Shown: piece after piece, positions 23,504 to 53,430 of the stretch
Layout: each line of letters opens with the position of its first letter
Position numbering within the stretch: the first letter of the stretch is position 1
NCBI GenBank assembly: GCA_020055645.1
Contig: CM034548.1
Coordinates: 16,988,001 to 17,052,000 of the forward strand
Origin: Tomocerus qinae
Lineage: Eukaryota > Arthropoda > Collembola > Entomobryomorpha > Tomoceridae
Direction: 5' to 3'
DNA length: 64,000 nt
The notes under the pieces: generated by a model
Told to the model about the DNA's origin: nothing
What the model saw: only the letters and a program-made list of their open reading frames with translations
Databases searched by the model: none
Made by a program: the position numbers and the translations under genes

Positions 23504-23784
23504 TTGGAAGACTCTTGTTGTAATGAGTGCTTGGCAGCAGGGCTTTTGATTCCAGTAGGCTGCATATTATTTCTGTCTACAGACGATGCTGCTCCCAAAG
23601 ATTGTTTCATCAGATTGTGTCTATCTCGATCTTGTTGCTTTTGCTGTTGTTTATATCGAGAGAGTTGGAAGAACAGACTTAGAATGGATTTCAAATGACC
23701 ATCGCGAATATCACGACCTGTGATTCCCTCCAGAGACACTCCAAGTCCAGTCAAAAACACCAAACAGTATTGGATATTGTCCAA
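23504..23784 (-). CDS. sick: NAV exon 4, end of CH domain and Gln-rich linker
   Basis: This 281-nt exon encodes 93 residues plus two bases. It begins LDNIQYCLVFL and continues through GHLKSILSLFFQLSRYKQQQ, which completes the CH domain (ends near protein residue 136). The rest is a Gln/Arg/Ser-rich, presumably disordered linker (QQQKQQDRDRHN ... AAKHSLQQESS). The acceptor is TTAATTGCAG|TTGGAC, and the TTG before it is intron, not a start. The donor is CCAA|GTAAGT, leaving phase 2; the split codon becomes AAA (Lys). The LFFQLSRYKQQQ tail is the most diagnostic NAV signature in the window; vertebrate NAVs read LFFSLSRYKQQQ. Exon boundaries in phases 0 and 2 agree with both neighbours. Sequence and splice sites look intact, with no sign of decay. 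Confidence 0.95.
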
Positions 23785-26700: not shown

Positions 26701-27916
26701 TTATGTCAGATATTTCAGTCATATACAGATATCATTATGTGAATGCGAGTGCTTCTGACAGCTTACCTAGTCAGATAGTCTAAGTTGCCAAGAAAGAATA
26801 TTGAAATCCTCTGGAGTGTAAATAACTAGACAAACATAAGAAACCTCATCCTGTTTGTTTGCTTGTATGACAAGACACGGGATGAAGAAGTACCTGCACT
26901 CCATTTCTGATATTATGTTAGACTCGCCAGTCTGTTATTAAGCTTACGCTGGCAATTAACCACAATTACAACTTTCGGATAAATTATGGACGAGAAAAGT
27001 AACCAACTCAATGACTATATACTACACCTATTTTATGTATCCAATTCCAAATAGTGTAAGTCGTTTAATTATCATCATTTAAAACTTGATTATACCATTC
27101 CCTCTTCCTTTCTAAACACTTTTTCAGTCGAATACTCTCAAACACGATCATTTTTCACTCCGTGATTCCCTCTCAACTACAAATTACATAACATCAATAA
27201 CAAAATATACATTTTACAACCTTCAATATAGAATCCGTCATTTTTCTCAACCCATGCAAACGGTTCTACCTGAGATTGCACAATACATGCTGCTCCACAT
27301 TTGTTGCAAAAAAAACTATATAACTTTTAAATGGGATTTCAAAGGAAATAAACAAAAATTTCTAGTTTAATTAAATTTACGGAAAACAAAATTGGATTAC
27401 AAGGTACAGTTACAAATATCTGATAAAAGCAGATATACGTAGTTACTTCAATTACTAGAATCTACAATAATATACCTTTAAGGGTAGTTCTACTCTACTT
27501 TAAAAATTTGTAGTTTATAATACTAGCTTGGTACATGGTAAGTAGATAATGTTATCTTTTATAGGAAGGCTAGGCTTTTATTGGGGCTTTCAATATGATA
27601 TACCCTATTTTAAAATAATAACATTTGGCTGCAGTAGCGGATACGCCCCTGAAATTAATTCTCACAAACAATCAGTGAATGGAATTGGAATTAATACTTC
27701 TGCAAAGTCTCAAGTTACCCAAGCACGATTAGATATCTTTGCCGTTCCTTTTTACGGAATTGCAATTTATGTGACAGCAACAGTTTATTCTACAAAATTG
27801 AATTAAAAAACATTACACAACACTTACAACTTATTTGCACTATGACTCTACTTGGGAGTGAATAGAGCTACCAGTTTTCTGTTTATTGAAACATAAACAT
27901 TATGTACTTTTTGGCC

Positions 27917-28014
27917 AAATTGGACCAAAGTGGCCGGGCCGAATTGAACTGAATTGGATCGAATTAGACTGATTTGGATATAATTGGACCGAATTGGAGT
28001 GAATTGGACTGAGG
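27917..28014. repeat. Decamer array related to GAATTGGACT
   Basis: From about 27941 to 28010, seven consecutive 10-bp blocks align without gaps: GAATTGAACT, GAATTGGATC, GAATTAGACT, GATTTGGATA, TAATTGGACC, GAATTGGAGT, GAATTGGACT. Looser copies precede them (AATTGGACCAAAGTGGCC). A small relative occurs at about 56376-56410. Confidence 0.88.
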
Positions 28015-31000
28015 TCTCTCAAATCCCCAATGCTTATTTGCAATTCGAAATGAATGACGAATACAATCAAACATATATTGTTAATTTACATCATACTGTC
28101 TGAAATATGTTATGATTTGATTCTAAATCACTGTTAGAAGAGGAAAGTAAAAGAAATAGTAATTATAAAAACAGAAAAATGAAAGCCATTATTTCCTTGC
28201 ATGTTGTTTGCAAAATTGATTTACACCTCGTTATGGAATAGTACAAACCCGTTGGACTTAGAATGAAAACCGGCATCTTTATTGTAAATGGATAGTTTAT
28301 GTGTATAATTATGCAATGACAATGATAGCAGTATTTGAAGCATATTGTCCTTAGGCGTGGAAAATGAACTCTCCGTAAGTTTGACGTATCTAAGTCAAAT
28401 TGTTGGTTGTAGTAAGTTGAAGAAATGACTACGTTTGTTTTTCTCACAGTATTGAGTATGAAACTCTGGAGAAGTTCCTTTTCGAACACACACCTTACCG
28501 CACACATAGGTACTTATCATAATAATAACATATATTTGCAGACTACATTACAGGTCAATGCATTCGTACTCCATTAAAGTGAATTATCTAACTTAACCTT
28601 ACCTAATAATAACAATATCAGAAGGAAACTTGCCCACGCTTGTGCAACCATTTAATGCTAATGGACAGAAGCAAAATAAATATTTATAAACGTTGTCTAC
28701 TGGATTACTAAATACGTTACAGGTTTCCTCAAGTAAGCTTCCATATTGTAATGTATATAGCTGTAGGCGAACGCTAAGTAGGATGTAGTATATTACATAG
28801 TTAACCAAGCAAACACGCAATTTTATTATTCATCTTGTATTCTATTATAGCAATGAATATGCATAGAAAAATTGCACGTGTATATTATATTGTATGCACA
28901 TTAAGCTGAAAATCAATTGCAAGTTTCTGTTCAGTGCATAAAGATTGCAATCTCATCAAATCAAGGTTAAAACTATTAAACGAGTAATTAAAAGACAAGT
29001 GACATAAAACCACATTTGTCGTACCATAACTTCCTTGAAGATATCGCCTATTGGTACAATAATATAGGATTGTACCTATTATCTCTGCACAACTAATTTG
29101 CATAGCGAAAGTTTAGATAAATGTAAAATTTAGCAAGATAATTTTATGGAACTTAATAATTGCTTAAATATCAAGGAAGTAGAGTTAAAAAGGTAGAAAT
29201 TATTGTAAAAGGAAAGGAACCCACAAATTTTGAAAGATTTCCATTGAATAAAAATAAGAACAAAACTAAAGCATCGAATCAAAAATAAATAGTATGCAAT
29301 ACCATTGGAGAAGTGTGCATATTTAGAGCTAACTACTTAGTGGCAATTTACACGAGTATTTAGATAAATTTCCGCGAGGTAAATAATGTATGTGGTCTGA
29401 GATAGGATTTAAATTATTTGGCATAATGAGTAAATATTTGGATGGTTGAAATGAGATTTATTTCTTAAGTGTATCAATGTGTATGAGCTGGCGTATGGAG
29501 AGAACCACAACCTTGCAGTTTCGTTCAATGTCGTTTCGTCATTTATTTAGCAACCACGAAAAGCTCGTTATGAACGCTGCATTATATTAAAATTGCAATT
29601 TTTTATGTCGGTCTCGCGAGAGCATAGTTCGTTGAAGCCACATCATGATTTAATGATATGCTATTGCGGATGATGTTTCAACTTTTTGTATCTCTACTCT
29701 GCTCACTCTTCTATTATCAAGACACTGCACTGTATCGTCAGTGCAATATAGTTTTGCATTGAAATTCGATTCGGCTTCATTTTTTTCTGCTTACATAGTT
29801 GTATAATCATGGATAGGTATTTATATAGAGATACTAGGTTAGATTCAGAGTCTTTCTTTTATATATATGTCTTCTTATTTATTAAACTTTGTATCGATTT
29901 ATATAATATGCAGATTAGTTCTCTTGCTCTCGTTATTCACAATCTACATTGCTATTTAAATACCTATTCTATACTTATAATTTTGAACATTTTTGCATAT
30001 CAGAGCTAAATTATAGATTTGTTATAGTATTACTGTAGTCGTTGAAATTAAATCCGTTTGTTGTGCACCTGAATTGATCACTCGCAGCGATTTGTCTCAA
30101 TCCAATCAAAGTTAGCCAAGGCCGCAAAAGGAATTCCTCATAAATTATCTAACTTACCAACCTTGCTTACCACAGATTAAATGTACTCACTGAATCATTT
30201 CTTATCTACTCTGTACAATCTCACTGTATAATTTCGGAAACTATTTAACATGATGAGTTCTCAGATTACTTTGGACCAACAACGTCATTAAATCTTTGCT
30301 TTCTCTGAGAAAACACTCTAAGTTCATCAAATGGACAGTAAAAAATGTTAATTACTACAAAAACCAACTAGTGTCTACACTACACATTATTAAGTATTAG
30401 CGAACACCGAAAATGGACAAATAAAAATGTTGTACACATCCAGCCATTCTTGCAAACAATGCTAATGACTTTGCTGTGTAAATATAGCAAATTGGATAGT
30501 TTTCTTAATATTTGTACATGAATGTCGTGGCTAGGCTATTTAGTACTAGCTCCAAGTTAAATATCATCACAAAAAAATAATCTATTCACTTGGCAGTGAA
30601 TATTGTGGGTAGTTCGTAATAAAGCCAGACTGAATTGTGTCTTACCATTGTATTAATCCTTCCATAGTTATAGAATGAAAAAAATGACGGAAAATCCTGA
30701 GCGCCATACAATAACATTCACACAATTGTTATATGAATCCACTAATTGGAAATACCTAACCTACCAATGTGATTTCTTTTAATTCAAAATGGAACTGCAT
30801 ACAGCACAGGCAGAATATTGTTTGATAAAAACCGAAAGTAAGATTCTATTGCATCAAATGTTAAGAATGACCTTGTTTTCGGTTGAAAAAGCACAGCACA
30901 CGTACAGACATCACTTACTATCTATCTACATGTTATACCTTTAGATAAATGTACTTTATGATTGGATGGATATGATACCAATAGCGAGTACACACTATTT

Positions 31001-31964
31001 ATCAAGTACTATTAGGTACCGTGTCTTGAAACTACGTAATTAAGATGTAATCTGTGTTCTTCGTGTGCCGTGATTCATTTTTTGCACATTGCCAGACAGT
31101 TTAAATACTCCCTGTTGTGACTTTTTAAACGTTTATTACATGAATTGGCTAAAGGAGATAACATAATTTAATGGACTTTCTTACAACCGGAACTTTTCTG
31201 TCTACATTTAATATTTATACTCATAGTAGCTATTTATAATTATGCAATATGTTTATCACTGTATCCACAATCATTATTTTCTTTGTTTACTGTCAAAGCG
31301 CAAAGAAAATTTCCAACATAGTTTTATAACTCAGTAAGAAAAGAATTTTTATTACAGAAGTGGAATTCTATCATTTTTAACTCATAATGTGAAGCATTAG
31401 AAAAAAATTGATGAAAAGTCATCATGCATTGTGTCATTGTAGCATTCAGCAAAAGAATTCAGTAAAGAAAAGCAGCCAGTTGCTTATATAAGTATAATAA
31501 AACCTTGAACTTGATGCACTCAATCTAATTGAAACAAATGGATATCAATTTGTTAATTAATAAATTGAACTCCTACGTAGGTTTTTAATAGAAAACAACC
31601 AAAACTAATAGTCTGATTTACCACAGAATTATTTCGGTTACAAACTGAAAGTGAAAACATTTTCCAGATTTACTTTCAGTAAAACTGATGGGCGGTCTCG
31701 AATAACAAAATTATCAAGCCAGAGTATATATCTACTACTTATTATACTTATAAAGCACATTCCTATTCAAACGTAGAACTTGATTATATCCCGCTGAAGC
31801 ATTTTTCATTCTATTTGTATTAAATATTATGGATTTGACTGATTAAACATGGCTATAGGTAGAGTTAAAAATAAATATATTTTTATTTTTACCACATCAA
31901 AGGCAATAAATAAAGGACGGGGGTAGCTTGATCCGACTGTCACTACATTATCTGTTCAGAATAG

Positions 31965-31992
31965 ATTGAATTGAATTGAATTGAATTGAATG
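31965..31992. repeat. (TTGAA)n microsatellite
   Basis: Five perfect tandem copies of the pentamer TTGAA. The same word is over-used elsewhere in the window, for example around 46160 and 27940. Confidence 0.95.
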
Positions 31993-34900
31993 CATCTCAT
32001 TCTTTAGCAAAGTCTGCCTATTGTATTGCATTTTCGTTTGTGAGCCGTTTTCAATCCGATTTCTTTGTATTCAATTGGATATGCGTTCTGCAATAAACTG
32101 ATGTGCGTAACGGAGAGTCCGTGTCGGGGCCTACGCACTCCTCTCACAAAACACCCGCTCTCATTGTCAGTCTTCTGGCTTTTTGTAAATGCACCTACAA
32201 GCAATTTTGTCTCAAATAGACAAGACACAGGTAGTAACAATAACAATAGGCGTAAAAAACTATTTCTTTCCTACCTATATTATATCCTAGATATTTTAGT
32301 CTTGCTTCATCCAAGTCGCGTCGTCGTCGGCTTTTCTATTCCTATTAGGTAGAGCTGCCTTTTAACTTGCTTATAGCTATCTAAGACATAATATTATATA
32401 AACCAATGTTCATTGTACCTGCATTACATGACATAATATAATCTAAAATAAAAGACAGTCAAAGTGTTTGTAAAAGGTAAGAAGGTTCTTATATGAATGG
32501 AATGGTCGAAATATCTACTACTGTTGGACGGAGAATGATAATAAATTCACTAGTGTCAAGTGTATTTCAGTGCAAGATTTGACTCGACTCCCCATCGGGA
32601 TTCCAATTCTAACCTTTTAGAAATATTTTGCTTCATTTCCTTTTTCCTTTAGGTGCTCACTATTTCTAAGACGCAGCAGTTCCCACAGTCACTATAAACT
32701 CTCAATTTCATATGTGCAGACTAATAAATTACTTTGAAGCTAATGACATTTGTTTCACTTTCAGTCGATAAGCCCATACTCAACATATAGATAATGGTTT
32801 AATGTATAGTTTTTTCTAGCGGGGCTGGAATTTAGCTGCAGAATGTAATTTATTACGTGTTAAGCTACAGTGGCCTTCCTTATTATATTTATTTAATAAG
32901 ATAACGCATAGATTTCATTACTAAAGTCTAATATTTAACTTAACCTATTTTAAACAATCTTAGTCATCGATGCTATACTGTGTGTATTCACTATTTGCAA
33001 AGAAATATTACTTGTGCCTTAGGTATTAAGTATAAACAACCAAAATTGGCTGAAAAGTTATTTCACAGAGTCAAGAGGGTTAAAAGAATATTTTATTGCA
33101 CCAACTTTATATAGCCCATTGTCATTTGTAATGTAGGGAGTAAATGGCTATCCTGCAACATAAATTTTAATGCAAATATGAAATATTTGGAATTATATTG
33201 CACCCAGTGCCATTACGAAGACCCATTGTATGTTCACATATTTATGTAATATTTACAACAAAAATGACAGGTAGAGGGACGCCTAGAGTAGCGATGTACA
33301 AGCCTGCATTTACAAAATAAACTTTTGAACTTGGGAGACATTGCATGAAAAAGGTGGGAACTGTTCAGACAATCTACTATAGGCAAACAGCATAATGTAC
33401 ACAAACTAATATGTATATGAAACCGAATAAAAAAGGTTATCAGCAACTAACTCCTGAATGGTAAACGGTACTTTAGTCTCCTGAACCCAGACCTCGCAAC
33501 ACGTAATAAATTCTTATGCCATGGAATTCTTGAATTACTCCTTCTCCACGTGAGATCCGTCTTATCACTTTCTTACCTTTATAGGCATTATACTAATACT
33601 ATATGTAATATATGTATTTAAAAGGATCAGAATAGCATATTATAAATATTGCTAAATGTTATTGGTGATTAGTCCAGATTGACTTAATCTGTATGGGATA
33701 CTATAGTCTTGTCGGTTTCATTTAATCTGTCTGGCAGTATTAAGTGTACTTTAAATGGTCATATTTAACACGAGATAAAAACTACACAAAGCATTTACAA
33801 TTGTACAACTTTTTTGTAGAAAGAATTACGTTATAAGTTATTAGCAACTAGGTAAGCCCATCATAGTTTGTAGTGCATACATGAATAAATGAATGAAATT
33901 ACTGAAATACAAAACGCATCTCAAAGTGATCAGAAATCTCTCGAGTGAATCTCGATTCGGAACAACAAGAACGTGACTGGATCTTTACCTTTAATATAAT
34001 ATTATCACTTTGAAATTGTAATATTGAGGTAATTATTGTGAAGGAATAGCAGTTCAGTTGCCATTTCCTACTGCCTACTCCAATGTTTACTTATTCCCAT
34101 TTACATGGACACTACAGAGTTAACTGAATGTAATAATCGTAGACAGCTCAGTCCTGCTTCCAAACTGGATTTTCTCTGTTTTGCAGATACTAGTTAAGAT
34201 TTCACGACCACAACCGGCCTCCTATTTATTACGGGTATTATATTACCTTAGCAAGTAATAAATATTTATCATCATTGAATGGGCAATTTTGGCATTTTTG
34301 TGTACATAATGCTGCCATATTATGTGATTTCTGGTAAAACATGCTCTTAGATGAACTTACAGCTAGGCGCTACTCTCCTTCTTTAGACATACCTAAATCA
34401 TTCTACTTTACATGCAATTGCATATGAAAACATGAAAGCCTACATGCGTAGCTACTGATAATATATAATAAAGACATTGATATACATACCTTATCTTTAT
34501 ACCAAAAGTGTGCTTAACATTCACTCCAAACGGTATTCATGGTAAAAAATCCAAAAGGATAAGATGCATTCAATAATCAAAATTCTCCACAAACGTGATG
34601 TACGAAAGAATTTGCGTTGATTTTGTTTATCTGTTTAGAATTTTCTCATGAACTTATTGCCGTCATTGAGAAATAAATAGTCATTCATGGGTAGGATTTG
34701 CTTGCACCGAGAACAGGAACTGTGGTGTACCTCTCTATTGCATTGTAATGCTAGAACTGTATTTATAAAGAACTAACCTGTAATCTTTTAAGTAAATAAG
34801 TACCTCAAGTCAAAATAGCAAAGTGATTTTTCTTTAAGAATGCTGAAACGGACTACTTCTGTTTAACTGTACACAGTTTGCATTATAAATAAGTTAAGAA

Positions 34901-37900
34901 TATTTATTGTTAGTTATATCATGATTTACTGACATTGAATTTTAATGAAAGTAGGTTTACTATTAATCAGTACCCTATTTAAAACGAGTATTTTGTGTGA
35001 TATATTTTCATAGGGTGAATTTGTTAACATTAGGTCATGTAAGTTCATTATTAGCACACCTTTAGGGATTTCAATATTCCAGTCGGGTAGGAAATGGCTT
35101 TATCAAGTACATCAGGTGCGCGTTCACTTAACTACTTACTACTATCAACTATCCAACTGTTACCCCAGGTACCTCATCATCTCATCTATCATATTCTTAA
35201 TATGTTTAACAGGTTTCTTTTGTTTATGGACAAGTACGCAATACCGATTTACACATGCCAATGGATTTAAATACTGAGAATTATATTATTCAATTTTTAA
35301 GGTATTTTACTCCAAGATATATCCCTAAAGTATCATAATCACTTAGGTTGATAACAAAATGAAATGGTTCCGTGAGGAAAGTCCTGACGTTAAAATCCTA
35401 CTTGAACGACATGTAATTGTGGGATGGCTATGAAAATAGCAGAGGCAGGCATTAAAGCTAATCTAGACAAGAGTTTTTGGTAATCTCCAGAAAAAAGAAA
35501 TAGGAGAATGGGTAAATCGTTTAGCAAAAACAGTTAGCCTCTTCCTGATTGTCGTCCGTAGCTGAGCTTAACTGCCTTGGAGAAGGACCTAAATGTGCTA
35601 TTCTCATGACATAACAAGAATAGAAATATTTGGCACTCCTTCCATCCAGTTGTGAATCTTGGGAGAACGAGAGCTGACATTTACGTATGAACATTGACGC
35701 TAAAGAGCGTAGCGTCTCCAGTCTATTTGATTTAGCCTTAACCTCAGAGTGAGATCAGCCAGTTATGTCAGTGGCATAAGCATTAGCATCAATATCAGGA
35801 ATCCAGGCAGGCAAGACAGAGATTTTTAAGAAAAACGGCAAAGTTGATGATGTCAGCTTCTTCGAGTCTGGCTAAACGCAAAAACAAACATCACCTCGCC
35901 CTTTTGTCTTTGTCATACTTCTCAAGACACGACTCTCCCCAGCAAAACAAAGCAAACTGGCATGGCTTGGCAAATAACTAACCAAACTACCCAGCAGACA
36001 CAAATTCATCTGCATCTGCCTCCACACAAGTTTTTACACTTTGCACTGCCGCTACTCTGTTCTCTGCAGCTACAGCTGGTTGACATTTAATCTGCTAATC
36101 ATCACGTATATGTAGGTATCTAAGGTAGTTGTGCTACGGATTGATTACTTTGGATAATGCCTACATTCATCCTAGGGTTAACTGTACTACTAATCTTTCC
36201 TGTTGTTTTCCAACATCATTCTCACCACCAAACTCCACACATAAATAAATGCATGATCTTTGCACACAGAAAAGTTCACAATGAGTCGTAAATTGTTACG
36301 ACTCTGTTAAGATATCATTCCTATACGATAAGTATTCATTTCCCTTGCAAATAATCTCATTTGCTCTATAGATGAGTCAATACATGTGCATATGCTATAA
36401 CTGCCAAATTCTGCAGAATAAGCAGCGACTATTCATACAAAAATACATCAACATCTACACTAGAAGCAGATAACCAAAATATTATGATTACCAGTGAATA
36501 GAGATAATCAAGTAAGCGAAAATATTTTGCAGTTGAACTGGAACTTTTCTGATTATTTCTAGTAGTCCGTCTCTGTTTCTGTTCCCGGCCAACAGAAACT
36601 ACACGCATAAAAAATAATTATATTGACTTGAGTCTTGTCGTGTAATATGGACTATGCATACACTTGAGTCATCGATATAATGGTGTAAATTGAATTTAGT
36701 CAGGATGAATACAACGGCGCTACTAAGTATGCTATCACTTCTCCTTATCTCCAACTCTCTATTATCCATCTAATATTTACTGGCGGACTCCTTTACGTTC
36801 CGAGTTTAAGTCATACAACTACTATTGGCAGACATAAACGGTTTAACCATAAGATTCACATCTGCAGTCTTACAACACACCAAAATATATATCCAACACC
36901 AAATCCCTATAGGATGGCTATAAGGTTAATATAATATGCTTTATGAATGTATCCTTAAATCCGTGCAATTACTTACGACCGAGTACACTGAACCATGTAG
37001 TAATGTAAATGTCATAAACTCTTTGGGGAACCAGCCAAGTTTGATTACCCTAATTTCTAAAACTAAAATCGATTGAGCATGACAGATATGAATCACTCAT
37101 TCACTGAATAAATAAATACCTCTTTATCAACGATGAATGCATCGCTCTAAAATTACGCAAGTGGATCTAAAAGCTTTGTGTGTGCAATGATAGAAAATAT
37201 TGAAAATAAAAAGGTCTTCAAATTGGCAGGACAAAATATTGAAAACTGTGGGTTCGACAAAACTTTTTGTTTTAAAAAAAACTTTCTTATACCCGGAGAC
37301 GTAAGTATTAGAACCAACAATTAAGTAGCTATTGTATGTGGATGTTTTAACATTACATTATAACATTACGGACGGAAAATCTAAAGGTAAACCAAATCTT
37401 ATTAGTCCAGAAGCCAAAAAGTAGAAGAAAAGGCATAATACTGTTATTATGTGTACTCGGAGTAAGCTATAGTAGTTGTAAACAGAAGACCTAAGCAAAG
37501 AGCAGTATCTACAGATAAAGGAAAAGAGCCGACACGAGGCAAAAGGCTCTTGCTCTTTTCATTCATCCATCCGATTCACCATCTATCTATGCCAATAACA
37601 CGCTACTCCATATAATTCGATCGAATTCAATTCATTAAACAATTCCATTATGTGCATCGTATGAACAACAATGTAACTGCAAGTACATAGATAAGTATAC
37701 TAGCTATAGCTAATACGCAGTCAAAATAGGCAGATATTTTTAATCGAAATTGATAATTTTGACAGTGTTTTATTGCATGACTACTATGCTGGATTACATT
37801 CAAGGTCAATTTTATTCTTTGAAATTATTTGTTAACATTTATTTCTTTACTTTTTAAATTTTCCAGAAACTTTTTACAAAATTTAAATAGCTCAAATAAC

Positions 37901-40900
37901 CGACTGTCACAAAATTAATTTGCATCGCTTTTCCAAAATAATTTAATAGATATTTATGGGAGAATAAGTTGGAAAAGACTAAGACAACAAAGCTTTATAG
38001 TAAAACATTTTGTTTTTTGTTTCAGTACTAAGCTTAATCGAATAGAAATAGGACTAGTCGCAGAAATATTTAATTTTACTAAAATTACATGCTTAAATAT
38101 TTAATAGAAACGAATTTTATACCACTACTAATAGAAATAAATTCGCAGAATAATGCCAATATTGATTTATGGATTTTAAATGATCTAATAACCTTCTGAT
38201 TCTCAATTAAGTATAAGAAATCAAATGGCAGAATAAATCATAATGATAGATCACTTGGGATGAAATTAGGTTAGTACTGTTTGAACTACTTGGAATTCAG
38301 AAATATTGAAATTTTTCCATTTCCATAGCTGTCCACACAGTTAAATCCTAATGCATAAAATTGGTAATCGAGGGAAGGTGAGTTGAATCATGTTATTACA
38401 CAACTGAAGAATGCTTACACATGAGCTTTGTAGTCATTTACATAGAAAACAATGGACATAGGTAGGTGGTTACATTGTGAATGCATAATCAGATGCAAAG
38501 GTTACCTAGATGTTTTAGGGCCAAATGCTAATACATAGAAAATGAGGGAGGGTTGAGATAATGTGTTTGTCAATATTAGAAATACATAAAGCGAACAAGC
38601 AGAGAGAGCACGATCGTAATTGTAATTTATATGTTAGCCCAAACAAGTAAACAGGTAGAAAGTTTTCCGCATAAGTATATGCCATGTATTAGTTACATAA
38701 TAATATTCTTTGAAATTGAATTCAATATGTTAGGAAGGATTGAGAGCAACGCAACGTAGCCACTAGTATTTATGCAAATACATGTCCATGCTTAAACTCA
38801 AAGTGCATTTTAAATTGACGCATTCATTAAATGAGAACATAAAACACTCAGGAGTCAGGAACTAGGATAGGAGGCGACCAACTCATTATTCTAATTTAAT
38901 CCAGTACTGGTATTCACTAGTGCAAATTCGTGCAGATACGTTAATAAATATTGTCAGTTAAACACAATACAGATAAAATATATTACCATGCCTTCTTAAA
39001 ATAGAATACACCAAATCTCTTATTAAAACCAAATGTCTAGTCTAACTGACAGAATTGGCGACGGGAAATCTAATTTGTTTAATATGCCTACAAAGCCGGT
39101 AAAAAGTCAGACAGAGTAGCTGTAACACTGATAATATCTTATGCTTGTTAGACAAAGTAACGAGTTCAATTTGCATGTAAGGGAAATCAAATGAACTCTT
39201 TCTTGGCATTTTTAATTAACACACAAGGAAAAGTACACATGAATAAAATAAAAACGCAATGGAAAATTTTAAGACCGTTACTGGCATCGACTTGGGTAGT
39301 TGATTTTACCTTTGGCAATAAAATATAGCTCAGAGTGTAGAAAATGGGATATCATATTGGCATTTTAACCCAAACTCATAAATATTAAAGTTTTGTCATT
39401 TTCCTAACAACATTCTCAATATGGTTTTAATATTAATTCATTCGTTAATACTTCTGCCATATTTAAAAAACTATTGAGTTGACATTATTTAAATATTTCT
39501 GCAGTTCATGTTTGATATTATTTCGTGAGAAATTCCTGGAATGCTTTGTCATTTTCTTCTCCACATACTCATCATTATGCTAATCCAAAGCAAGAACATT
39601 TTTTATAATCGCAGACCAACATAGTAATAGTAATGTTTATTATTTATATAGCCATTGCTACGGCTATTCTACTACTGTTAGTAATAAACTCCTTAGTTTG
39701 GTAAAACAACCTAATAATGGTTCCATGTAATTTGACTATGATTATATTTGTAAATAGCACGACTTGGTAGATTTGATTCTTTTCATCTGCCATTCATTTA
39801 ATTGTAACGATATTTCAATAATTAGGATCAATTACCTTTAAGCGAGTAAAAGCCTATGTATGAAGAAATGCTAAAGCAAGAACTTATCCCGATAGCTAAA
39901 GGGGACTGTTGATGATGATTGATATGAATCTTGTCCATAATTCAGATGAATGGATGAGAGTGTGAGTGTTGACATTAGTTGGAGTTGTAATAAATTCAAT
40001 TAGGTTTAATTACCTAGTTTTTAGGTTGAGATTGAGGCCGAGCCGTAGAAGGAATAAATAGTATCTTTTATTCCTGGCAAGTACAACAACAATTAGTCTT
40101 TGTAAGTGGAGAGGAAGTAAAGTAGCGTAACGTAAGAGCACAACAATGTTATCTGCTCTCGACTTTGTTTGTTTTGTGTCTCCTCTAGCACTTCAATCAA
40201 GATGAAATGGAAAGGGAATCAAAGAAGATTGAATCTAGCTACATATATTTATAGGTACCTAAAACCCTGCTGGATCTTTCATTAATTCCCACATAGTCGT
40301 GATCACTTTGTGTATACTATTTCTATTGTAAATTCACTTTGTGTCAGAATTTCATAATGAAACCCACATTTATCTGTCTTGCCCACTTAGTAAATTGTTT
40401 GAAGTAGATATCCTTAGAAAACCAAAAACTGTATAGAATTAATTGTTTTCAAATTGTAACAAATTGCACAACTGTATCTATACAAAGTATTTTCAAAAGA
40501 ACATTTCACTAGCGAACTGGTTAATATTTCCCAATTGAAATCTGTATACATAATTTGAACAGATCTAATAATAGTAGAATTAGTTAGAACTTATAACAAT
40601 TTAATGTTTATCTTTAGAAAACTCAACAGTGTATTGAAATGGTGACAGGAGCTGAATGGATGAAGTGAACTGAGCAGACACCGGCACATTTCTGAGCTAA
40701 ACTTCCTAGTGTGTCTGCAAGTATCACAATGTTTGTAAACGTTCATTTAAGACTCCAGCTAAGAAGATAGGCAAAGACGTCTACAGTGAGTACATGACCC
40801 TTTGCTGTACACAATACACACCTTTGCTAACAAAGTATATCTTTCAACGGGGAACTGTGCACAGATTAGGCTTGAATGTTAATCTCACGACGATATTATT

Positions 40901-43900
40901 ATGTGTGCTTATGTAAGGTATGCTCCATTGTGCATTATTATCCTGCTGCATGGAGAATGAATGTCGTAGATACATACCTTTAGCTTTTAACTAATTGTAA
41001 TTGGAGAATGGAGCAAGGCTAGTTCAGATTCACGACTGCCAACGTTTTTACCTCCAACCAACAATGTGCAGTGCAGGATGAATTACTTAATAAGATACGA
41101 TAATGTAAGAAACAAGTGATTTGTAAACCGAAAGAAGTCTGACTGAAGATCTCTGATGACTAAATGGCTACACACTATTGCATTCGCAGTGACGGAGTAC
41201 AAACAAGTCAGTTCAGCTCAAACATTCTTGGAGGAGAGAAGGAAGGACAGATTTAAGACGGTAATATAGAACTACTAATGTACACATTAACTTTACTAAC
41301 TTGCTCTTTACTGATATTATAACTCTTTGGCTAACTTCACCAACACGCAACGGTGTGCACTAATATGCAGAATGAGGTTGTTAAATCCTCCACTTTTTAT
41401 GGTGAATGACTCTTCTATAGGTTTCTAAAGGGCGGTGTGTGTAAATTTATCCTCTATCTCTACTCCCTATTTGATCTTTCCACTTTTATCCTACTACTTC
41501 ACCAAACAACGAGCTGTTTGTTTTATTTAATGCCATCAACGGCCTGACAATGAGACATCAAGACAAATGTTTCCCTATACTAGGAAAAATTCAAACATCC
41601 ATTACTACCCTATATAAGTAATTTTCTATTCATGGATTTTAACATACTTTTTCCTGTAGGCATACACATTATGTAGTATATATACTTACAGGATACTCTT
41701 CAATATGATTACATTGAATTAGTAACGAAAACTTAGCTATATGGTAACTAACAATCTTATGACTGTGATTACAATGCAGACAGAAATTAGAATCCCGTCT
41801 AAATTTTAAATTCACATTATATTATCCGCAAATTTTAAACAATATCACGCAACAGATTGATTTATTAATCAGTTTTCAGTTAAATGAATTTCTTTGTTTT
41901 CATTACTACAACTCTCAGAGATTCCTAATTTTCAATTGAGGATAATATACATTTTTGGCTGAAAGGCAGTACATAATATCGTAAGCAGATGAACCTTCCT
42001 GCTTATACTTGCAGCGTGTCTGTATATTTGTTTTTCTTAGTCCCCCTGCTGTCTCTGCCTCGTGCCATTACGTTCCTGTACTCATTTCTTATTACAGTAA
42101 TGTCATTATAAGAATACCTATACTGAGGTATTTCAGTTATAATAGCTAAAATTTTAAATATAGTATACCGAAAGTTAACTTGGAACGTAGAACTACCTTC
42201 TCGTGCCTATACAAAAGTTGCATGCGTGCAATTATTGAAGAACTGCATGACAAGTAATTTTAAGACTGTCTGTACACACAGTCTGTACAATTCCAATCAA
42301 CATGGCTTCAAGCTTGAATAATTTGTGACGTTATAACAAATTATCATAAATTCACATCTTATTTCATATTTCAAATGAAAATGAAAAATGACTCGTTATT
42401 TATAAAATTGCTATACTTTAAAATTGTTCAATGAGATTCTGAAACATACATTTTTATACAAATAGTTCATAAGACACTTTGGTTTTTACAAAATGATGTT
42501 ATATCCATATTTATTGCTTCGAGCATTAGTTTAATATATTTTAATTTGTCGTAGAAAAGATAAGTATAGACAGAATGGAGATCTTGACCATTAGCTTAAA
42601 GTAAAAACAATTTATAAATATTAAAAAGGGCACAGGAGAATGTATACACAAAAACACGTACCTAAAGGAAGTCTGAAGTTAAACTACCCAGAGAGTCAGG
42701 TCGATTTGAGAAGTACGGAATAGCTTCCGAATGTTTTGAGCGTAAAGTTGGAAAGTGTAAAATCTGTTAAACTATTATTGATATAACATTAGGCCAGGGT
42801 CTGTTTTGTATGGCTGTTGACTGTTTTGTATTAAGCACTTCCCCGTCATTAGAATTAGAAGTAATAACGAGGATCAGAAGCGGCGACCTTTCAGGGCGAC
42901 ACTGAGTATCGCTTTACTTTGGTATATCTCAACTTGTAACTCATCACAAATGTCGCAGGGTAATAACGCTTAATTATCTTCTTTGGCATTGTCATGCAAA
43001 AGTGGTCTGGAGGAACTTATATTTGATTTTTAGGACACATTTGTTCTGCCATGGAAATGAATATTTCAACTGTCTGTTGGTTTGCAAAATGAAATTACAC
43101 TCGGCACAATATGTTTTTAATTTTGAGATAATCTCAAACTGGTAATATTAAACTGCGAAGTATTATTTATATTATTTTCTTGTGTGTACTTAGCAACGTA
43201 ATTTGAAATGACATTGATGTATGGGATAATAATATACTTAAGTACATCTCAATGGATTACTTAAGTTAGTGTATATAGCACGAGGTTTGGGTAAGCACTG
43301 GAAGTTAATACGTAGAGTATGGATTGTATTGTATGGCGATTTATACGAGTCAGTAAATAAAATGGAAGAAAAAGTGTTTTTAGCAGAGAAGTTTAGGAAG
43401 AGTAATAAAAAACGTTTGACAATTTTGTGTACGTTATGGCTTTGTAAGATAGTAAAGGAAGATTAGTGACAGCTTCTTCCGGCAAGTGAGATGGCAAGGA
43501 GCGATCCCGTTCAGAACGAAGTCAGAGTTAAGACTGAGTGAAGGAGAGTATATAGCAAGTTGTCGTGTACGAGTCAAGTAGAGTAAAACGTTTCAGTCGT
43601 TAAGGCTGGGTATGAAAGAGAAGATGAGACGGCGTTCTTATAAGAAGCTTGCAATTTCGCAAAAGCAAGGACATAGTAATTTGTGATTCCATAAAACCCA
43701 TGTGAAAGAACGTGTACGAAGGTAGTCGTTGTACAATGAATGAAAATAGACTGACTGTGGCGTCAAAAAGAACAATAAAAAACCAAATAAAAGAAGCGAG
43801 GTTTTGAGCCATGTATACCTTAGCTATAATAAATGCTCATAGCATAATACACAATAAACACATTCACATAAAGTAATAATACTTTGTACTACTACTAACA

Positions 43901-46900
43901 CAGAATGTTCCGATGTAGTAAAAAGAAACGTGCACAGAAGACATGCTCATACAGACACATTAAACTACAATACAGGACAGTTGAAGTAGTAATCCGAAAC
44001 TAAAGAACTTCTCAAGGTAGTTTTCTACTTTGCTGTACTATTTCTACATTTGTCTTTCTAATGCTACTACAGAGCTACATTCTATTATTTCCCGACAGTA
44101 TACCATAATATGAATATTGCACACAAAAAGTCGCTTATATTCGTGCAAGCAACATAATAATCGGGCACCTTGACTTTCTGGCTTGCTCTTCTCCTACCTA
44201 CCAAATACAGAGAACAATAATGGAAATAATAATATCATTGCGTGGTGCAACGACTGGACTGACTGACTAACAATCCTCGTCATCATCCTTAACATCGTCA
44301 CTCATCAGACCCTGCACCACCTAATCATATTCTATTATGGATAACAACATCTGAACCCAGAGTGTGAAATGCACATAATTGCATATAAAATTCTTTATAT
44401 GGATATAGAGAGATATACGTAGAAAACATTTCATTGTTTACTGTTTATTGCTCATCTTGGAGTTGAACGTAGCTTTTGACAGACACTAAACGGTTTTTAA
44501 AAGAAAGGCTTGACAACTTGAGACACAACACACGAGGATTTTATGAATGAATTAGTAGTGTAGGCGCCTAGGCTATCAACCGAGAGTGGATAGCTCACAA
44601 TTGTATAATACCTTTTCTATGTTTGTGGAGTCACACGGTATGGTACGTGATGTACCTATATGCATGAATAACAACTCATCCTGTGATTCGTGCTCGAAAT
44701 CGTTTACTCGTTGTGACTCATCTCATGTATGACGAAGACGATGACGACATAGAAATCAAAATACAATCACCTCATACATGAATTTGGGACGCAGTAGGAA
44801 TGCATTTACGAGACTTCTGTGCTCTGCTCTGATAGAAATCCTAGTATAATAACATAGAAAAGAAAGGTCGTGGATTTCTTATAGAAAGTGTTTTATTCAA
44901 TAGGATTGTATAGCATGTACAATAATGGCAAAGTGAGACGATGGAATTAGCATACACTTGTAGTAGTTTTCGCCGTAGTAGTAATACTTACACTTACAAT
45001 GTTACAATTAGTGAGAGTCAAAGTAGTAAAAGCTCTTATCTGGAAATGAATGAACCTATAAAAACAGAGTGCCTTCCTAGGTCGCATGATCAACGGGGAT
45101 TCCCCGAGAATTCGATTCTTCTGGAGCTGGAGTCATGGCATCGAACGACCTAACTATTTAACTAAACTCGTTGCCTGCCTCGCCGGTAGGTAGTATACTA
45201 GGAATGTCTAATAGACAATACAAATGTAACCAGAATTCCAGAATCTATCCCGAGTTACTTTTACTCTTGTTTGCCCTTTCAGTTTTAGCCAGCAATGCAC
45301 TTACTATGAAATGCTAATGTGAGTAGGCCCATAGTCCATCCACTGTTTTTCATGGCATTAATAACACTTTAAGTCACGAGTGCAAATGTTAGTACAGTGT
45401 GACCCTAGTAGTCAATTAAAAGGAGCATTCGATCGATAGATACTTGCATAGCCTTAGTAATCCCACGCAAATGCTTAAAAGGTTAATTAAATTTTATTAA
45501 CAGCAACTTCATTAACAGTAGTTTCAAATTAATCCTATCATTAAAGTCTTAAGACGTACAATTTCTATTTCAAGATCGCATTGTTTACTTAGGGAGCCCT
45601 CATAAAAGTTTATTGCCCAAATCCAGGTACACTATTCTCAACAAATTATGCTATAGCTAATGTTTATGTATAGTTCTTGAAGCCAAACACAGCAGAATTT
45701 AAAGCTAAACTTTTGAGACCATGTGTGGTAGGCATAACTAGACCATCAATAAAAATCCAACTTTTAGGTAACTTGTTACAATTGTCATATGAAGAAATTC
45801 GACGTAAGAAAACATTCTTACAGGATTTCTTATAAATGTCTCAACCAGAAAGAGAAGACAAGATGGGATATTGAAAGGAAGTCTAAACTTTCTTTAGCCA
45901 CGACCAAATCTATCTATTTATCTTACAAGACTTATGCTAACATGTATCTGGTGTAATGGTATCTTTACATACAAGGCTTTCTGCATAAAATAGAGCAATA
46001 TTATGATTAGATGTAGCAATGCATACCCTAAGGGAAGGCTTTTATTCCGCCTGATAAGATATGGAAGGAGATGGGATGCGAATGCGACTGGAAGCAATGA
46101 GATAGCTTGTCTTGGTTTGTCTTGCCATTGTGACACAGAAGAGTTGAATGCAACAGCAGCGTGCAGCTCAATTGAATCCAATTCAATTCTTTCAAATACA
46201 AGCAATGTACCTACGGAACTTGGTCTACCTAGTCGGAACAATTCTAGTACACAAAGAATAATTCAATTCGATTCCGTTCAAGTCAAACTAATCTCATCGC
46301 ATCTACAATTCAATAGATCCCATCTACATAGTATCAAAACATCCAATCCACCTTATCTATTATCTGGATCACTAAAAATACATCGAAAAGCATTTCCACA
46401 ATCGCATGCACATACACACAAGTTTCTACATGTCGTATAATCGGATTCAGTACTCGATTGAATTGACGTGCGTGTAAAATATGCATGCATTATCTATTAT
46501 CAAACCTCTTCTCTAGTTGCAAACTATAAATATAAAATATTATTTCTGCCATTGTGTATTTCAATCTTAAAAAAGCAATAATGCTCATATATCTCTACAC
46601 AATAAAAGTGTTCGGAAGCTTGGAAGATGGAGAAATTTATCTGCTATATGTATGGACAGTGCAACTGAAAAAGTGAGATTTCGTAATATATCCATTCCAA
46701 CATCTCTGCAACCTTCTTTTACTATTGTATGTGAAAATCTTAATATGACGAAATGAATATTTGTTATTTAATTGTTAAATTGTAGAAAATCTTCTCTATA
46801 AATTTTGTAGTTTAACTTCAGTATTTATCTATCTTTGTAATAAGACACATTTAAAAAGCATTTGCTAAATATCAAGAATAAATACTTGAATATGTGTTTA

Positions 46901-48921
46901 TTATCTTTACAATGCCCATTAGCGGGATAAATGTAACCATTCTGGAACCCAATATTCATACATTCCCTTAGTAATTCTTACCCTACTAAGTATTGCATAA
47001 TAACATTATATTTATAGGTATGTGCTTCTACTATGAATGTAGATAGCATTATGCATGTGAAATTAGAACTCCTTTAGATTTCAGGGAACGATTGTAGTGC
47101 ACCGGAAATTGATATGCAAATTAGAATTGTTGAATAATATTTTGCCTATCATTCACTTGTTAACTCTCAATGTCAATCTTGATTTACTGCCACGTCCAAG
47201 TTGTTTAGGTTGAAGGTTGAACTTACGCACACCATGCAGTAATGCAGTGACATTATTATGACATAAAATCTACCGTGCACGTTTCACCGAATGCAAATAA
47301 ATTATAGCATGCAATCAAAATCAATGTTACTCCTTACTGTTTTTAACATTATTACATTCCCTTGTACAAAAATATTGTTTAATATAGGTTACAACTTAGC
47401 GAAGATTGACGACACGACACGCCTGATTGCACATTTTCAAATTATCAATTGAATACAAAAGATTTCCATAAAAATATCGCCATATAATTTCTGCAAATAT
47501 TTCTGACATTAATAAAATTTTATTATTAAATGAAATGGAAGTTAATTATATTTGTCTCCATGGTTAAATGTAAATAATAATAGATTTAGTTAATGTAAGT
47601 AGTAATAATATTCTAGGAAAATTTGTGTTCCAATTAATTTTATTATCCAAATTTCCCAGTGGGAATTTTCTTTTATAGAGGATAATGTTGTTGGAATATT
47701 GTTAGTTTGCTTTTGTATTTACAAATTCTGGATCCGGCAAAAGAATTAAAGAAAAAGTTACCAAAGCCTGTGAGTTGAATTTTTTTAGCAATTAAAAGTA
47801 GAAAAACCCAGTTACTAAGCACTAGCACAAATCTTAATTTTGACACGTATAGTCATTCAAACATTACTCATAATTTTGACACGTTGGCTATCGCTCAAAT
47901 AATAAAACATGAGGTAAATAAATACGCAAACACAAGAGTTTCCCCATCACTCACGTCGTAAATTGTCATCTGACTTTTGCAAACTGGAAGCAAAAAGCAA
48001 ATGTGCAAGTAAACTAGAAAAGAGTACGGAGACACATGCCTAATATGTTTACCTCCGTTTATATTTAGTATACTAATAAGCAAAAATTGTGACTGCTATA
48101 TGCACAGACATGAAATTGGGTAGATATGCATAACAACAATATTTTCGTGAAAAATATCTATTGCCTTTTGAAGTTAATTGTAAAACTGTAGGGGGGCTAC
48201 TCAATCTACAGCCACGCAATTTAGCAAAGCCTGATCATTGGTTATGATGTTGCATTATTGCTCCGTTGTAGTAATATTGTGAGACTAGGGGTTTGTGTGC
48301 CTACTTATCGGTATTTGTATGTGACATACCGATGACCGAAAGCCTTGCTGAGTTAGTGCGTAGAATAATTTCTATGATTGCACGAAAATATCGTGTCAAA
48401 CACAGGATAATACATCATAAATTCTTAACATAACAAGCGTAGCTCGCTGATTTGTTTATGGGTTAACTTAAGACTACAGTACGAGCACTCAAAAAGGAAT
48501 AAAATGAAATTAGGGATCAAACATGCAACCGCAAAAGGAAATGACAAAGGAGCAAAGTCAACTCCACTTTCACTTCGTGTAAATAATTGTTTTACTACGG
48601 TACCTAAGGGTTAACAAGAAACTTCTGATATGAGCTAAGATATTCTCCTTCTAATCTACTCAAACATAAAAAACTGGACCACGTCAACTGATTCTAAACT
48701 ATAGCAATCAGTTTATGCATTCTGCATAAAACTTTACTACCCTAACTAAACACACATAAATAGAACAACCAATAACAAAATCCCTTTCACTCAGGCAGGG
48801 CAACTATTTCTCAACTTGAGTAAATTGAATGAAAAAATAGACTATATTTGTAAATAAAAATTACCTATGCATATATAGTATATACTGCGCAAATTTTAAA
48901 TAACGGATACCAGAATAAAAG

Positions 48922-48949
48922 TTTATTTTCCAACTATAATCTATTTATT
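48922..48949 (-). terminator. Candidate poly(A) signals of the nested Ig gene
   Basis: Two AATAAA hexamers on the minus strand, at 48949-48944 and 48927-48922, follow the stop codon by about 170 and 190 nt. The sequence is AT-rich throughout, so chance hits are likely. They are reported because they fall at a sensible distance for a short 3' UTR. Confidence 0.4.
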
Positions 48950-49117
48950 ATAATAGAATAAATTTTTGATTTTCTGAGTCATGTTAATGTTAATGCATAA
49001 ATATAAAAAATTATATAATATTTTTAAATCATATAGTTTCGCTGGTTTTGATTTATATAAAACACAATCCGTAAATTATGTAATTTATAATTGTGCATTT
49101 TAATTCAACAAATTTGA

Positions 49118-49273
49118 TTACAAATCGTCTGTCGCGTCCGAAATCACAAACAATCGACTGGCTCGTCCCAGAAAATTAGCTGCGATGCAAGTATAATTGC
49201 CATTGAAAAAGTTTTTGCTGGATAAAACGGTTTCCGTTGCTGTATTCTTTATCTCGTATTGATCATCGACCAA
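49118..49273 (-). CDS. Nested Ig gene, exon 3 (C-terminal half of the Ig domain and stop)
   Basis: This exon follows an 81-bp intron whose acceptor (AATAAATAG|TTGG) has a poor pyrimidine tract. It adds 51 residues from LVDDQYEIKN to SDATDDL and then TAA. It contains the second cysteine in GNYTCIAANFLG, a typical Ig F/G-strand passage. The usual Asp of the D-x-G-x-Y-x-C motif is Phe here. Other AG sites in the short intron would bring an in-frame stop. Confidence 0.85.
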   Translation of the reverse strand: MVDDQYEIKNTATETVLSSKNFFNGNYTCIAANFLGRASRLFVISDATDDL

Positions 49274-50018
49274 CTATTTATTTATGTGAATCAAAATCAA
49301 TTAGATTTTCTGTAATTCCAGATATGTTTATGGAAAAATGTTCTATTCTTTTACCTTCCCGTCTAATAACCATATAAAACTTGGTGTAGGTGACCCTTCA
49401 ATAATCTCACACTTAAGACTTGTAACATGTGCAACTATATTCACTGGTTCAGATTCGCCAGAAAGCTTCGGCGACCTTGGTACGGATATTTCTAAACAGC
49501 AGAAAATTATTTATTTGATGCCAGAAAATATTTTGTAATATTTGGTTAGGGATTGCATTTTGGCAAATACTTTTTTGGCAAAATAAATTCCTCTTTTGCA
49601 ACATTGCAAATTGACAAATGGCAACTGATATTGTCATTTTCCAATTTACTAGTATTATTATCTAATACACTACGAAATTGTAAAAAATACGGAATTGGGG
49701 GTAGAGATTTAAAAATTTTGGACTGAAAAGTACCAAAGTATGCAAAAAAGATTAAAAGACGAAAAAATGAAGAAATTAAATCTCGCACGTGCTATTTAGA
49801 GTTTCCCGAGTGTATTTACGTTGAATAAATAAGCGTCTTATACGGCTGATGCCAAAATGGACCAAAAAAAACTGTCGCCAAAAATGATTGCCAATTTGGG
49901 AGCAAATCTTAGGTAGATAAGAAAAGGTTTGGGTGTTGAACTCACCACCGCTATCATCTTCTCCTGATGAATCGGCAAAAGCCAATTGGAGTAAAATGCA
50001 CAAGAAAAATAGCCTCAT
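49118..50018 (-). CDS. Nested gene: small secreted single-Ig-domain protein, complete (3 exons, 121 aa)
   Basis: Exons 50018-49946, 49491-49355 and 49273-49118 (TAA at 49120-49118) join in phases 1 and 0. The protein has a signal peptide (MRLFFLCILLQLAFA, likely cut before Asp16), an acidic DSSGEDDSG linker and one I-set-like immunoglobulin fold at about residues 28-112. It shows the disulphide pair Cys52 and Cys99 (47 apart), core Trp65 in FIWLLDGK, GSPTPSF before the Trp, and GNYTCIAAN in the F strand. It ends LFVISDATDDL with no membrane segment or GPI-type hydrophobic tail, so it is predicted to be secreted. Asn96 is a possible N-glycosylation site. It lies inside NAV intron 3, in the same orientation, with its own TATA/initiator and poly(A) signals. 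Single-Ig secreted proteins in invertebrates act in cell recognition, hormone binding or immunity; which applies here is unknown. I do not recognise an orthologue. Confidence 0.87.
49355..49491 (-). CDS. Nested Ig gene, exon 2 (N-terminal half of the Ig domain)
   Basis: The acceptor is TTTTCTGCTGTTTAG|AA and the donor is GGGAAG|GTAAAA. The exon completes a Glu codon and adds 45 residues from ISVPRSPKLSG to FIWLLDGK. It holds the first disulphide cysteine (SLKCEI), the Gly-x-Pro-x-Pro turn and the core Trp of an I-set Ig fold. Entry in phase 1 is the classical phase for Ig-domain exons. Confidence 0.88.
49946..50018 (-). CDS. Nested Ig gene, exon 1 (signal peptide)
   Basis: The exon carries 24 codons plus one base: ATG, a 15-residue signal peptide with a Leu/Phe-rich core and an AFA cleavage motif, then an acidic DSSGEDDSG stretch. 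The donor is AGCGGTG|GTGAGT. The ATG follows AAACAAA, a favourable insect start context, about 38 nt after the predicted start of transcription. Without splicing the frame stays open for 80 codons, but that read-through has no recognisable domain. Confidence 0.87.
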
Positions 50019-50055
50019 TTTGTTTAGTTTTGGTAGTAAACGTATCCAATAAAAC

Positions 50056-50088
50056 TGCCACGTAATTTTTACCGTTCGCTCTTATATA
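50056..50088 (-). promoter_or_regulatory. TATA box and initiator of the nested Ig gene
   Basis: TATATAAG lies at 50088-50081 on the minus strand. An initiator-like GCAGTTT follows, with its A at 50056, exactly 32 nt downstream of the first T of the TATA. The predicted 5' UTR is then about 38 nt before the ATG at 50018. Spacing and motifs match a focused arthropod TATA/Inr core promoter, showing that the Ig gene has its own promoter rather than being a NAV exon. Confidence 0.75.
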
Positions 50089-50801
50089 TCAAATCGCCTA
50101 ACCTGAGCGTGACTAAAGATAATCATTTTTTAAACATACTTAAACCATGCTCAAGAATTAATATTTTTGAGACTGTAAGACAACATACAATGCGTAGTGA
50201 AATACTGATGTCTTATTAATGACGTCAAATCAGATCCGGGATCGGAAACAATCTAAGAAGGTATAACATGATAACAAGTTCCTTCATTTGACTAGATACA
50301 TACAGATAACAGACCTTCAGTCAAAGACCAATCCAACCGTTTGCATATCTATTCATTTTAAATGCTAGAATTAATTGCGTTAAGGAGAATGACTCACTCA
50401 TTGACTATGATTTGAAGGGAAGCGATTGCTCCATTTGGTAAAGGTTGGTAAATAATAATTCTCATTTTAACCCTGGGCTATTATAAGTTATGCACCTCGG
50501 TAATTATGAAAATCTAAACACAGATGAGATCATTTCTGATTCATGAAGTATAATGTCAATAAATGCATTGCTACTCACCTTCAGTTACAACTTCTTTATA
50601 ATGAAGTCTACAATAGCTATTTCGAAAAGAATGGAGTACTTTTTAAAAGAATTGGAAGTTTTAAAGCAAACTTATAAATACAATTCTAGTAGATAGTTAA
50701 TATTCTATAAATGCATACTTATCTATTTAGCTATAAATTTTGCTTCAATTATTAAATTGCAGTGATGCAATTGTGAAAAAAACAAAAAATCAATGACTTA
50801 C

Positions 50802-50854
50802 CATTTGTGATGCATTTTTTGGTTTTCGGATCACATCAGATACTTTTTGATTTG
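50802..50854 (-). CDS. sick: NAV exon 3, 53-nt CH-domain microexon
   Basis: The exon supplies the codon-completing CA (Thr) and then 17 residues, NQKVSDVIRKPKNASQM. It sits between a pyrimidine-rich acceptor (TTTTTTTTCTAG|CA) and a consensus donor (ATG|GTAAGT). Phase 1 in and phase 0 out match its neighbours exactly. Vertebrate NAV proteins have a closely similar segment at this place, with the PKN and SQM triplets shared, so both frame and homology support it. It is followed by a 27-kb intron that contains a separate secreted Ig-domain gene on the same strand. The second copy of the tandem-repeat element lies about 160 bp upstream in transcript terms, at 51012-51597. Confidence 0.93.
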
Positions 50855-51011: not shown

Positions 51012-51597
51012 TTACGCTTTAATCCAGCGCTAGCCTCACTCTGTTTCACTGTCACGATAACTATCATATCTTAGCAATCTATGTATTTGATGATAAAGCA
51101 ATTTAATAATGGAATTATTAAATGATCGGTGATTAAGTAGATCAAACCTCGGAATTTAATTTATTTTAACAAGTACTATATACGTTATATAGAGTCTTGG
51201 AGTTCAATTATCAATTATAAAAATACCAACTTGATTTATTGACCTGCATTAATAAATACATATTATTTTAATGCATTCGTATTAATAATTTACACGGATT
51301 CGGGCATGTAAAAATAAGCTTTATAACAGCACTAGCCTCACTCTGTCTCACTCTCACAATAACTCTTTATCATATCTTAGCAATCTATTTAATTGATGAG
51401 GACAATTTAATAATGAAATTATTAAATTATAAACGGTGATTAAGTATATCAAAACTTGGTATTTAATTTAGAAAATTGAGCATGCATGCATAGTTGATAA
51501 GTATTTCGGATGAAAATCGGAGAGCTATCTACACAGACCAGAATACCGAATAGCAGCAGCATTGATTATTATACAATGATCAAAAATATGAATCAAT
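51012..51597. repeat. Dispersed element copy A with ~302-bp tandem monomers
   Basis: About one and a half monomers are present. TAGCCTCACTCTG recurs at 51031 and 51333, each followed by near-identical text (ACAATAACT.., ATATCTTAGCAATCTAT, GACAATTTAATAATG, CGGTGATTAAGTA). A unique right arm follows (AAAATTGAGCATGCATGC ... ATGAATCAAT), shared with copy B at 53431-54186. No coding capacity or clear terminal inverted repeat is visible. The layout, a short tandem array plus a fixed tail, resembles non-autonomous Helitron-like or satellite-carrying elements. It sits in NAV intron 2. Confidence 0.85.
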
Positions 51598-53201: not shown

Positions 53202-53319
53202 TCACTGCCTCGATAACGTCTGCTAAAATGACGCCATCCGTCACATCCACCTGCAGGTCTTGTATATGCCGTTTGCATCTTGCTTTCTCCAAGTAATGGT
53301 TGGCCCAGTCCGTGTAAAT
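53202..53319 (-). CDS. sick: NAV exon 2, first half of the CH domain
   Basis: This 118-nt exon encodes 39 residues plus one base (protein residues about 35-73). It begins IYTDWANHYLEKARC and ends GVILADVIEAV. It covers the first CH helices, including the Trp of DWANHYL and the DVTDGVILADVI core that every NAV CH domain carries. The acceptor is TTTTTTTGACAG|ATTTAC and the donor is GTGA|GTAAGT, a perfect consensus, leaving phase 1. The residue split across the next junction becomes Thr (A|CA). The exon is too short and too interrupted to appear as a long open frame. CH domains of this type act in cytoskeletal binding, and here the domain stands alone at the N-terminus, as in other NAV proteins. 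A copy of a tandem-repeat element lies about 110 bp away on its 5' side (53431-54186). Confidence 0.93.
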
Positions 53320-53430
53320 CTGTCAAAAAAATTGATGTCATCATAAATATAATGCTACCATTCGACTTAAGATCACATTCATCAATGGTAATTATTGTAT
53401 CGCATGAAAATCCACGAAATAACTATTTTG

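Follow-up and report, generated by a model that had tools for sequence, protein, structure and literature searches.

A probable small gene for a predicted secreted single-Ig protein nested, in host orientation, in a neuron navigator intron of Tomocerus qinae

The 64,000-nt stretch analysed here (the window) probably holds a self-contained three-exon protein-coding gene, with its own putative promoter and a predicted secreted single-Ig product, inside the intron that interrupts the CH domain of neuron navigator (NAV, here not a sodium channel), in the same direction as the host. Its exons can be spliced, its frame is intact and opens with a signal-peptide-like segment, it encodes a single domain of I-set type, and it is nested on the strand of NAV (Table 1). 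Judged from its sequence, the gene is most likely transcribed independently, and its product would serve as an Ig ligand or modulator in soluble form. Nesting in introns and small secreted proteins of the Ig type are each well known, and the gene looks real; it provides a clean case of a small intron-containing gene that a listing of open reading frames overlooks, and the gene whose intron holds it, in host direction, encodes a cytoskeletal protein of neurons.

Table 1 Coordinates (window positions) of the nested Ig gene, its flanking motifs and the surrounding NAV exons and intron
Feature	Position	Strand	Details
Ig gene, coding exon 1, 73 nt	49946..50018	-	Start codon, predicted signal peptide, acidic linker; phase 1 end at GTGAGT
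Ig gene, coding exon 2, 137 nt	49355..49491	-	First half of Ig domain with Cys52 and Trp65; phase 0 end at GTAAAA
Ig gene, coding exon 3, 156 nt including stop	49118..49273	-	Second half of Ig domain, N96-Y-T sequon, Cys99; C-terminus DATDDL
Core-promoter-like TATATAAG, 22-nt spacer, GCAGTT (TATA + Inr-like)	50053..50088	-	Upstream of the ATG of the Ig gene
Poly(A) signals AATAAA (two), 169 and 191 nt downstream of the stop codon	48922..48949	-	Beyond the 3' end of the Ig reading frame
NAV exon, first part of CH domain (IYTDWANHY...IEAV)	53202..53319	-	Phase 1 end
NAV exon, middle of CH domain (TNQKVSDVIRKPKNASQM)	50802..50854	-	Phase 0 end
NAV intron, 27,017 bp	23785..50801	-	GTAAGT...TTGCAG; contains the Ig gene
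NAV exon, end of CH domain and next stretch	23504..23784	-	3' end by inspection at donor GTAAGT (23502 in one analysis)

Spliced in order on the minus strand, the three coding exons of the Ig gene form a single open frame of 121 amino acids. The two introns measure 454 and 81 bp, and the exon lengths place them in phases 1 and 0, the first separating the signal peptide from the Ig domain; a phase-1 intron at this position is usual in the Ig superfamily. The donors (GTGAGT and GTAAAA) and acceptors (GTTTAG and AAATAG) are canonical, although the pyrimidine tract of the second acceptor (CACATAAATAAATAG) is poor, which counts against the gene model. Retention of intron 2 brings an in-frame stop three residues on, and retention of intron 1 leads into unrelated sequence (60 residues of read-through inspected), so the whole Ig domain arises from the spliced form only. 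On the upstream side, the ATG lies 35 nt past the last T of GCAGTT, in the context CAAAATG. The pattern TATAWAAR with a spaced KCAGTY has one match in the window, at the Ig gene, and at least one match in 29 of 100 shuffles; its evidential value therefore lies in its position and not in its rarity. TATA-like octamers alone are not above chance in the window (44 observed, 47.8 expected). The TATA/Inr promoter would start transcription near position 50056, and the transcript would end past the AATAAA signals, near 48.9 kb.

The product contains C7, C52, W65 and C99 and a single sequon, N96-Y-T. The Cys-Trp-Cys core and the YxC motif (GNYTC), a membership feature of the I-set/Ig_3 type, are both present. 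The N-terminus (MRLFFLCILLQLAFA) is signal-peptide-like, and inspection places a small-residue cleavage site following AFA; the mean hydropathy of its h-region is 2.7, and the maximum over any later 19 residues is 0.95, i.e., no further hydrophobic stretch follows. Hydropathy and inspection, both applied to the sequence alone, concur on a predicted signal peptide, one Ig domain and no apparent membrane anchor. Once processed, a mature protein of ~106 aa would be secreted and, in the manner of other single-Ig proteins that are secreted, would act outside the cell by binding a partner on the cell surface or in the matrix. In Pfam, the 121-aa protein exceeds the curated cut-offs of Ig_3 (E 2.6e-8, 34.7 bits, cut-off 30) and I-set (E 4.7e-6, 27.0 bits, cut-off 23.7) and stays below those of Ig_2 (21.7 bits, cut-off 27) and ig (15.5 bits, cut-off 21.8), and the reversed protein, used as a control, matches no family. 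NCBIfam, whose models describe prokaryotic proteins, returned no family for the protein, as expected. A PDB search gives 91 distinct sequences with E-values of 0.01 or lower, with chains of Robo, titin and neurofascin leading the best 60 of them; whole-chain E-values sum over several Ig domains, and the best single-domain value among four alignments compared is 4.1e-5, for an Ig domain of Robo1. These matches place the protein in the Ig superfamily and not within any single matched family. An earlier sequence-only reading of this DNA had described three exons with exact phases and a 121-aa protein with a signal peptide and one Ig domain (Cys52, Trp65, Cys99), and had credited the gene with its own promoter: coordinates, splice sites and translation were all reproduced, inspection and hydropathy agree with the signal peptide, the profile search that this reading had proposed recovers the Ig domain as given above, and core-promoter-like TATA and Inr-like motifs do precede the start.

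The identity of the host follows from the exons around the gene. The three NAV exons of Table 1 have matching phases and splice without a gap into a whole CH domain, which scores 59.2 bits against Pfam CH (cut-off 26) and whose residues 1-107 match the NAV2 structure 2yrn at E 9.9e-39, the next molecule following at 6.6e-9. The host thus possesses the N-terminal NAV-type CH domain that is a membership feature of neuron navigators. Since these same-strand CH exons match NAV2, the Ig gene (49118-50018) sits in a NAV intron, which bears out the same-strand nesting asserted in the earlier reading; its TATA element and ATG lie 713 and 783 bp, respectively, from the 5' end of this intron. NAV polymerases would traverse the Ig gene, which would be spliced away with the intron. 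Downstream of 23.5 kb, window positions 12783-13040, the sole piece searched there, match no Pfam family. Around the NAV exon that encodes the first part of the CH domain, we also observe units of a ~300-bp repeat, two at window positions 51013-51472 and two at 53424-54000; they are ~80-95% alike in matched pieces (families D1-D7; region searched to 54000) and probably belong to a dispersed element. Elsewhere in the NAV intron, the plus strand at 45994-46440 carries a stop-free frame of 148 aa, the longest listed in the window, and the plus frames around it match no Pfam family at E 0.01.

The exons of the Ig gene were picked by eye from 64 kb, and single exons give weak Pfam matches (Ig_3 positions 2-40 of 78 for exon 2 by itself, E 0.0019; V-set_CD47 as the one family for exon 3 by itself, E 0.053; neither reaches the cut-off), so that an Ig-like peptide put together by chance from intron sequence deserves consideration. 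We regard it as very unlikely, since the joint Pfam match of the spliced protein reaches the E-value given above, the promoter-like and poly(A) motifs flank the exons in register, and both a scan without splicing and a search for a split Ig core lead to the same place. When all six frames of 37300-50801 were scanned without splicing, with stops written as X, Ig_3, at the Ig gene, was the one Pfam family to reach E 0.01 (E 6.5e-4; 20.6 bits, under the cut-off of 30), and two of the three minus frames, scanned over the remaining part of the NAV intron, contained no Pfam family. An Ig core split by a short intron occurs in the window at the Ig gene only (minus strand; three alternative acceptors, one donor); the plus strand lacks it, as do all 60 first-order Markov resamplings of one strand, a control that leans towards the candidate because the pattern was drawn up after the protein had been seen. 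Scanning the window for tRNA genes and for Rfam families (gathering threshold) gave no match, and a search of virus contigs, which is uninformative for insects, gave six pattern matches and no confirmed relative. A more serious competitor treats the Ig exons as alternative terminal exons of NAV, a truncated NAV being produced through the Ig acceptors or by intronic polyadenylation at the Ig poly(A) signals. It draws on the shared strand, on the position of the poly(A) signals ~1.9 kb into the NAV intron, and on the mouse H13/Mcts2 locus, where both genes are reported to be sense and the activity of the nested gene to promote intronic polyadenylation of the host (PMC13309782). The reading frame speaks on both sides. 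The middle CH exon of NAV ends in phase 0 and Ig exon 2 requires phase 1; joining the two shifts the frame and soon meets a stop, which disfavours a NAV-Ig fusion by way of exon 2. The join to Ig exon 3 keeps the frame, yet delivers half an Ig domain. Judged by phase, a NAV-Ig fusion is unlikely. By eye, a weak acceptor-like CAG is seen in frame at 50057-50055, devoid of a pyrimidine tract, at which NAV may be joined. Because the terminal-exon explanation also leaves the intact predicted signal peptide and the whole Ig domain without a reason, we consider it unlikely.

Whether the gene is instead a relic or a known gene under another name was judged from the rest of the genome (334 Mb in 115 contigs, the window belonging to contig C3). 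A protein search listed 17 matches: the three exons of the gene itself, one match at E 5.5e-5 and 13 at E >0.03. The best match outside the gene among those listed, on contig C2, shares 36% identity over residues 31-115; its own PDB matches are mixed, and by its appearance we take it to be an Ig exon of lachesin/IgLON type. None of the matches listed qualifies as a close parent or sister of the gene. Elsewhere in the genome, L009 (C2:45454994-45458236) is a row of several similar Ig exons (PRINPF.FGEEPLQSGEHA...) that look like the variable exon array of Dscam1, and L010 and L012 (C3:26751733-26756712) are Ig matches within an open frame of 2932 aa, probably a giant muscle protein, e.g., projectin or twitchin. 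The shortness of the gene might suggest a recent pseudogene or an inactive duplicate of another Ig gene, but its frame, splice sites and promoter-like and poly(A) motifs are all intact, and the 17 listed matches include no close parent, the next best being only 36% identical; this origin is quite unlikely. Its predicted plan of a signal peptide and one Ig domain in <200 aa is also that of OIG-4, CG14141 and CG7607, known from worm muscle and fly astrocytes (PMC5177635, PMC4390571 and PMC12881522), of which it could be the local orthologue. The fly proteins CG14141 and CG7607 are described as small astrocyte-enriched Ig proteins, and a C. elegans orthologue is attributed to CG14141, with Rapti et al. 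2011 given as the source (PMC5177635, PMC4390571); the same work is the source cited for OIG-4 in a review (PMC9083331). CG14141 has 162 aa and is termed almost certainly secreted, and the two related fly genes are reported in adjacent intervals (PMC5177635). For the comparison, a provisional insect OIG-4-like fragment served as the query. Among the 12 matches listed for it in the genome, four fall in two genes, one on contig C5 (66% and 63% identity; L014/L017, C5:5936928-5937292) and one on contig C4 (73% and 64%; L015/L016, C4:22805218-22805598), and the other 8 have E-values of 3e-4 or weaker; the nested Ig gene is absent from these 12. Given the high identities of the C5 and C4 genes, the provisional fragment is probably family-like. 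Its alignment with the nested protein covers 27 residues, 8 of them identical, short of family similarity. Nor is the internal intron of the Ig domain shared: it is in phase 2 inside the Trp codon in the C5 gene, in phase 0 and 14 residues downstream of the Trp in the C4 gene, and in phase 0 and 5 residues downstream of it in the nested gene, a weak criterion since the C5 and C4 genes differ mutually. With the short alignment, the better genes on C5 and C4 and the differing introns, all relative to a provisional query, we reject orthology to OIG-4/CG14141, which we hold to be very unlikely. On the remark of the sequence-only reading that it knew of no named orthologue, the results point neither way; OIG-4/CG14141, the single named family of small single-Ig insect proteins compared, corresponds here to other genes.

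We thus favour an independently transcribed, self-contained Ig gene, and its placement raises the question of what it would mean for NAV. The sequence-only reading had conjectured that its expression may be tied to NAV transcription and that the gene may be lineage-specific. By the H13/Mcts2 precedent, an effect of the Ig gene on NAV is possible, the precedent itself being no evidence for one. A cis-regulated pair can be imagined in which, with the Ig promoter and poly(A) signals active, NAV transcripts stop within the intron that follows the middle CH exon; a secreted, lineage-specific Ig ligand and full-length NAV would be made in alternative cells; we think such an arrangement improbable. 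Were it true, an extracellular cue and a cytoskeletal guidance protein would be linked at one locus, and co-regulation of NAV and the Ig gene would raise the importance of the finding. If the self-contained gene is expressed, it adds to this genome a secreted Ig protein distinct from both OIG-4-like genes, and it offers a natural case for how a host intron tolerates a promoter and a poly(A) site in its own direction.

Several known systems resemble this arrangement in part. As is predicted for the nested protein, C. elegans OIG-4 and Drosophila CG14141/CG7607 are small and have a signal peptide and one Ig domain (PMC5177635), whereas the nested protein is scarcely similar to them beyond the general Ig pattern and has a different internal intron. 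Robo, the contactins and the adhesion proteins of IgLON/lachesin type share I-set domains with it, Robo, titin, neurofascin and contactin being among its top PDB matches; they are multi-domain, whereas the nested protein shows a single domain and no apparent anchor. Among the papers listed in literature searches covering nested genes, small proteins with a single Ig domain, OIG-4, CG7607, CG14141 and sickie or neuron navigator, none describes, in its title or abstract beginning, an Ig gene in a NAV intron. Nesting as such is familiar from Drosophila, where one paper reports that ~6% of genes are nested and that they often run against the direction of the host (PMC3786989), and another, which discusses interference, gives ~10% of genes in nested structures (PMC13343718). 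Drosophila 2mit is likewise a complete gene within a host intron, that of timeless2, to which it is antiparallel, whereas the Ig gene runs in the direction of NAV (PMC3786989). In the mouse H13/Mcts2 locus, nested gene and host are transcribed in the same direction, as the Ig gene is in NAV; that locus differs in being an imprinted mammalian one with a methylation-controlled nested promoter (PMC13309782).
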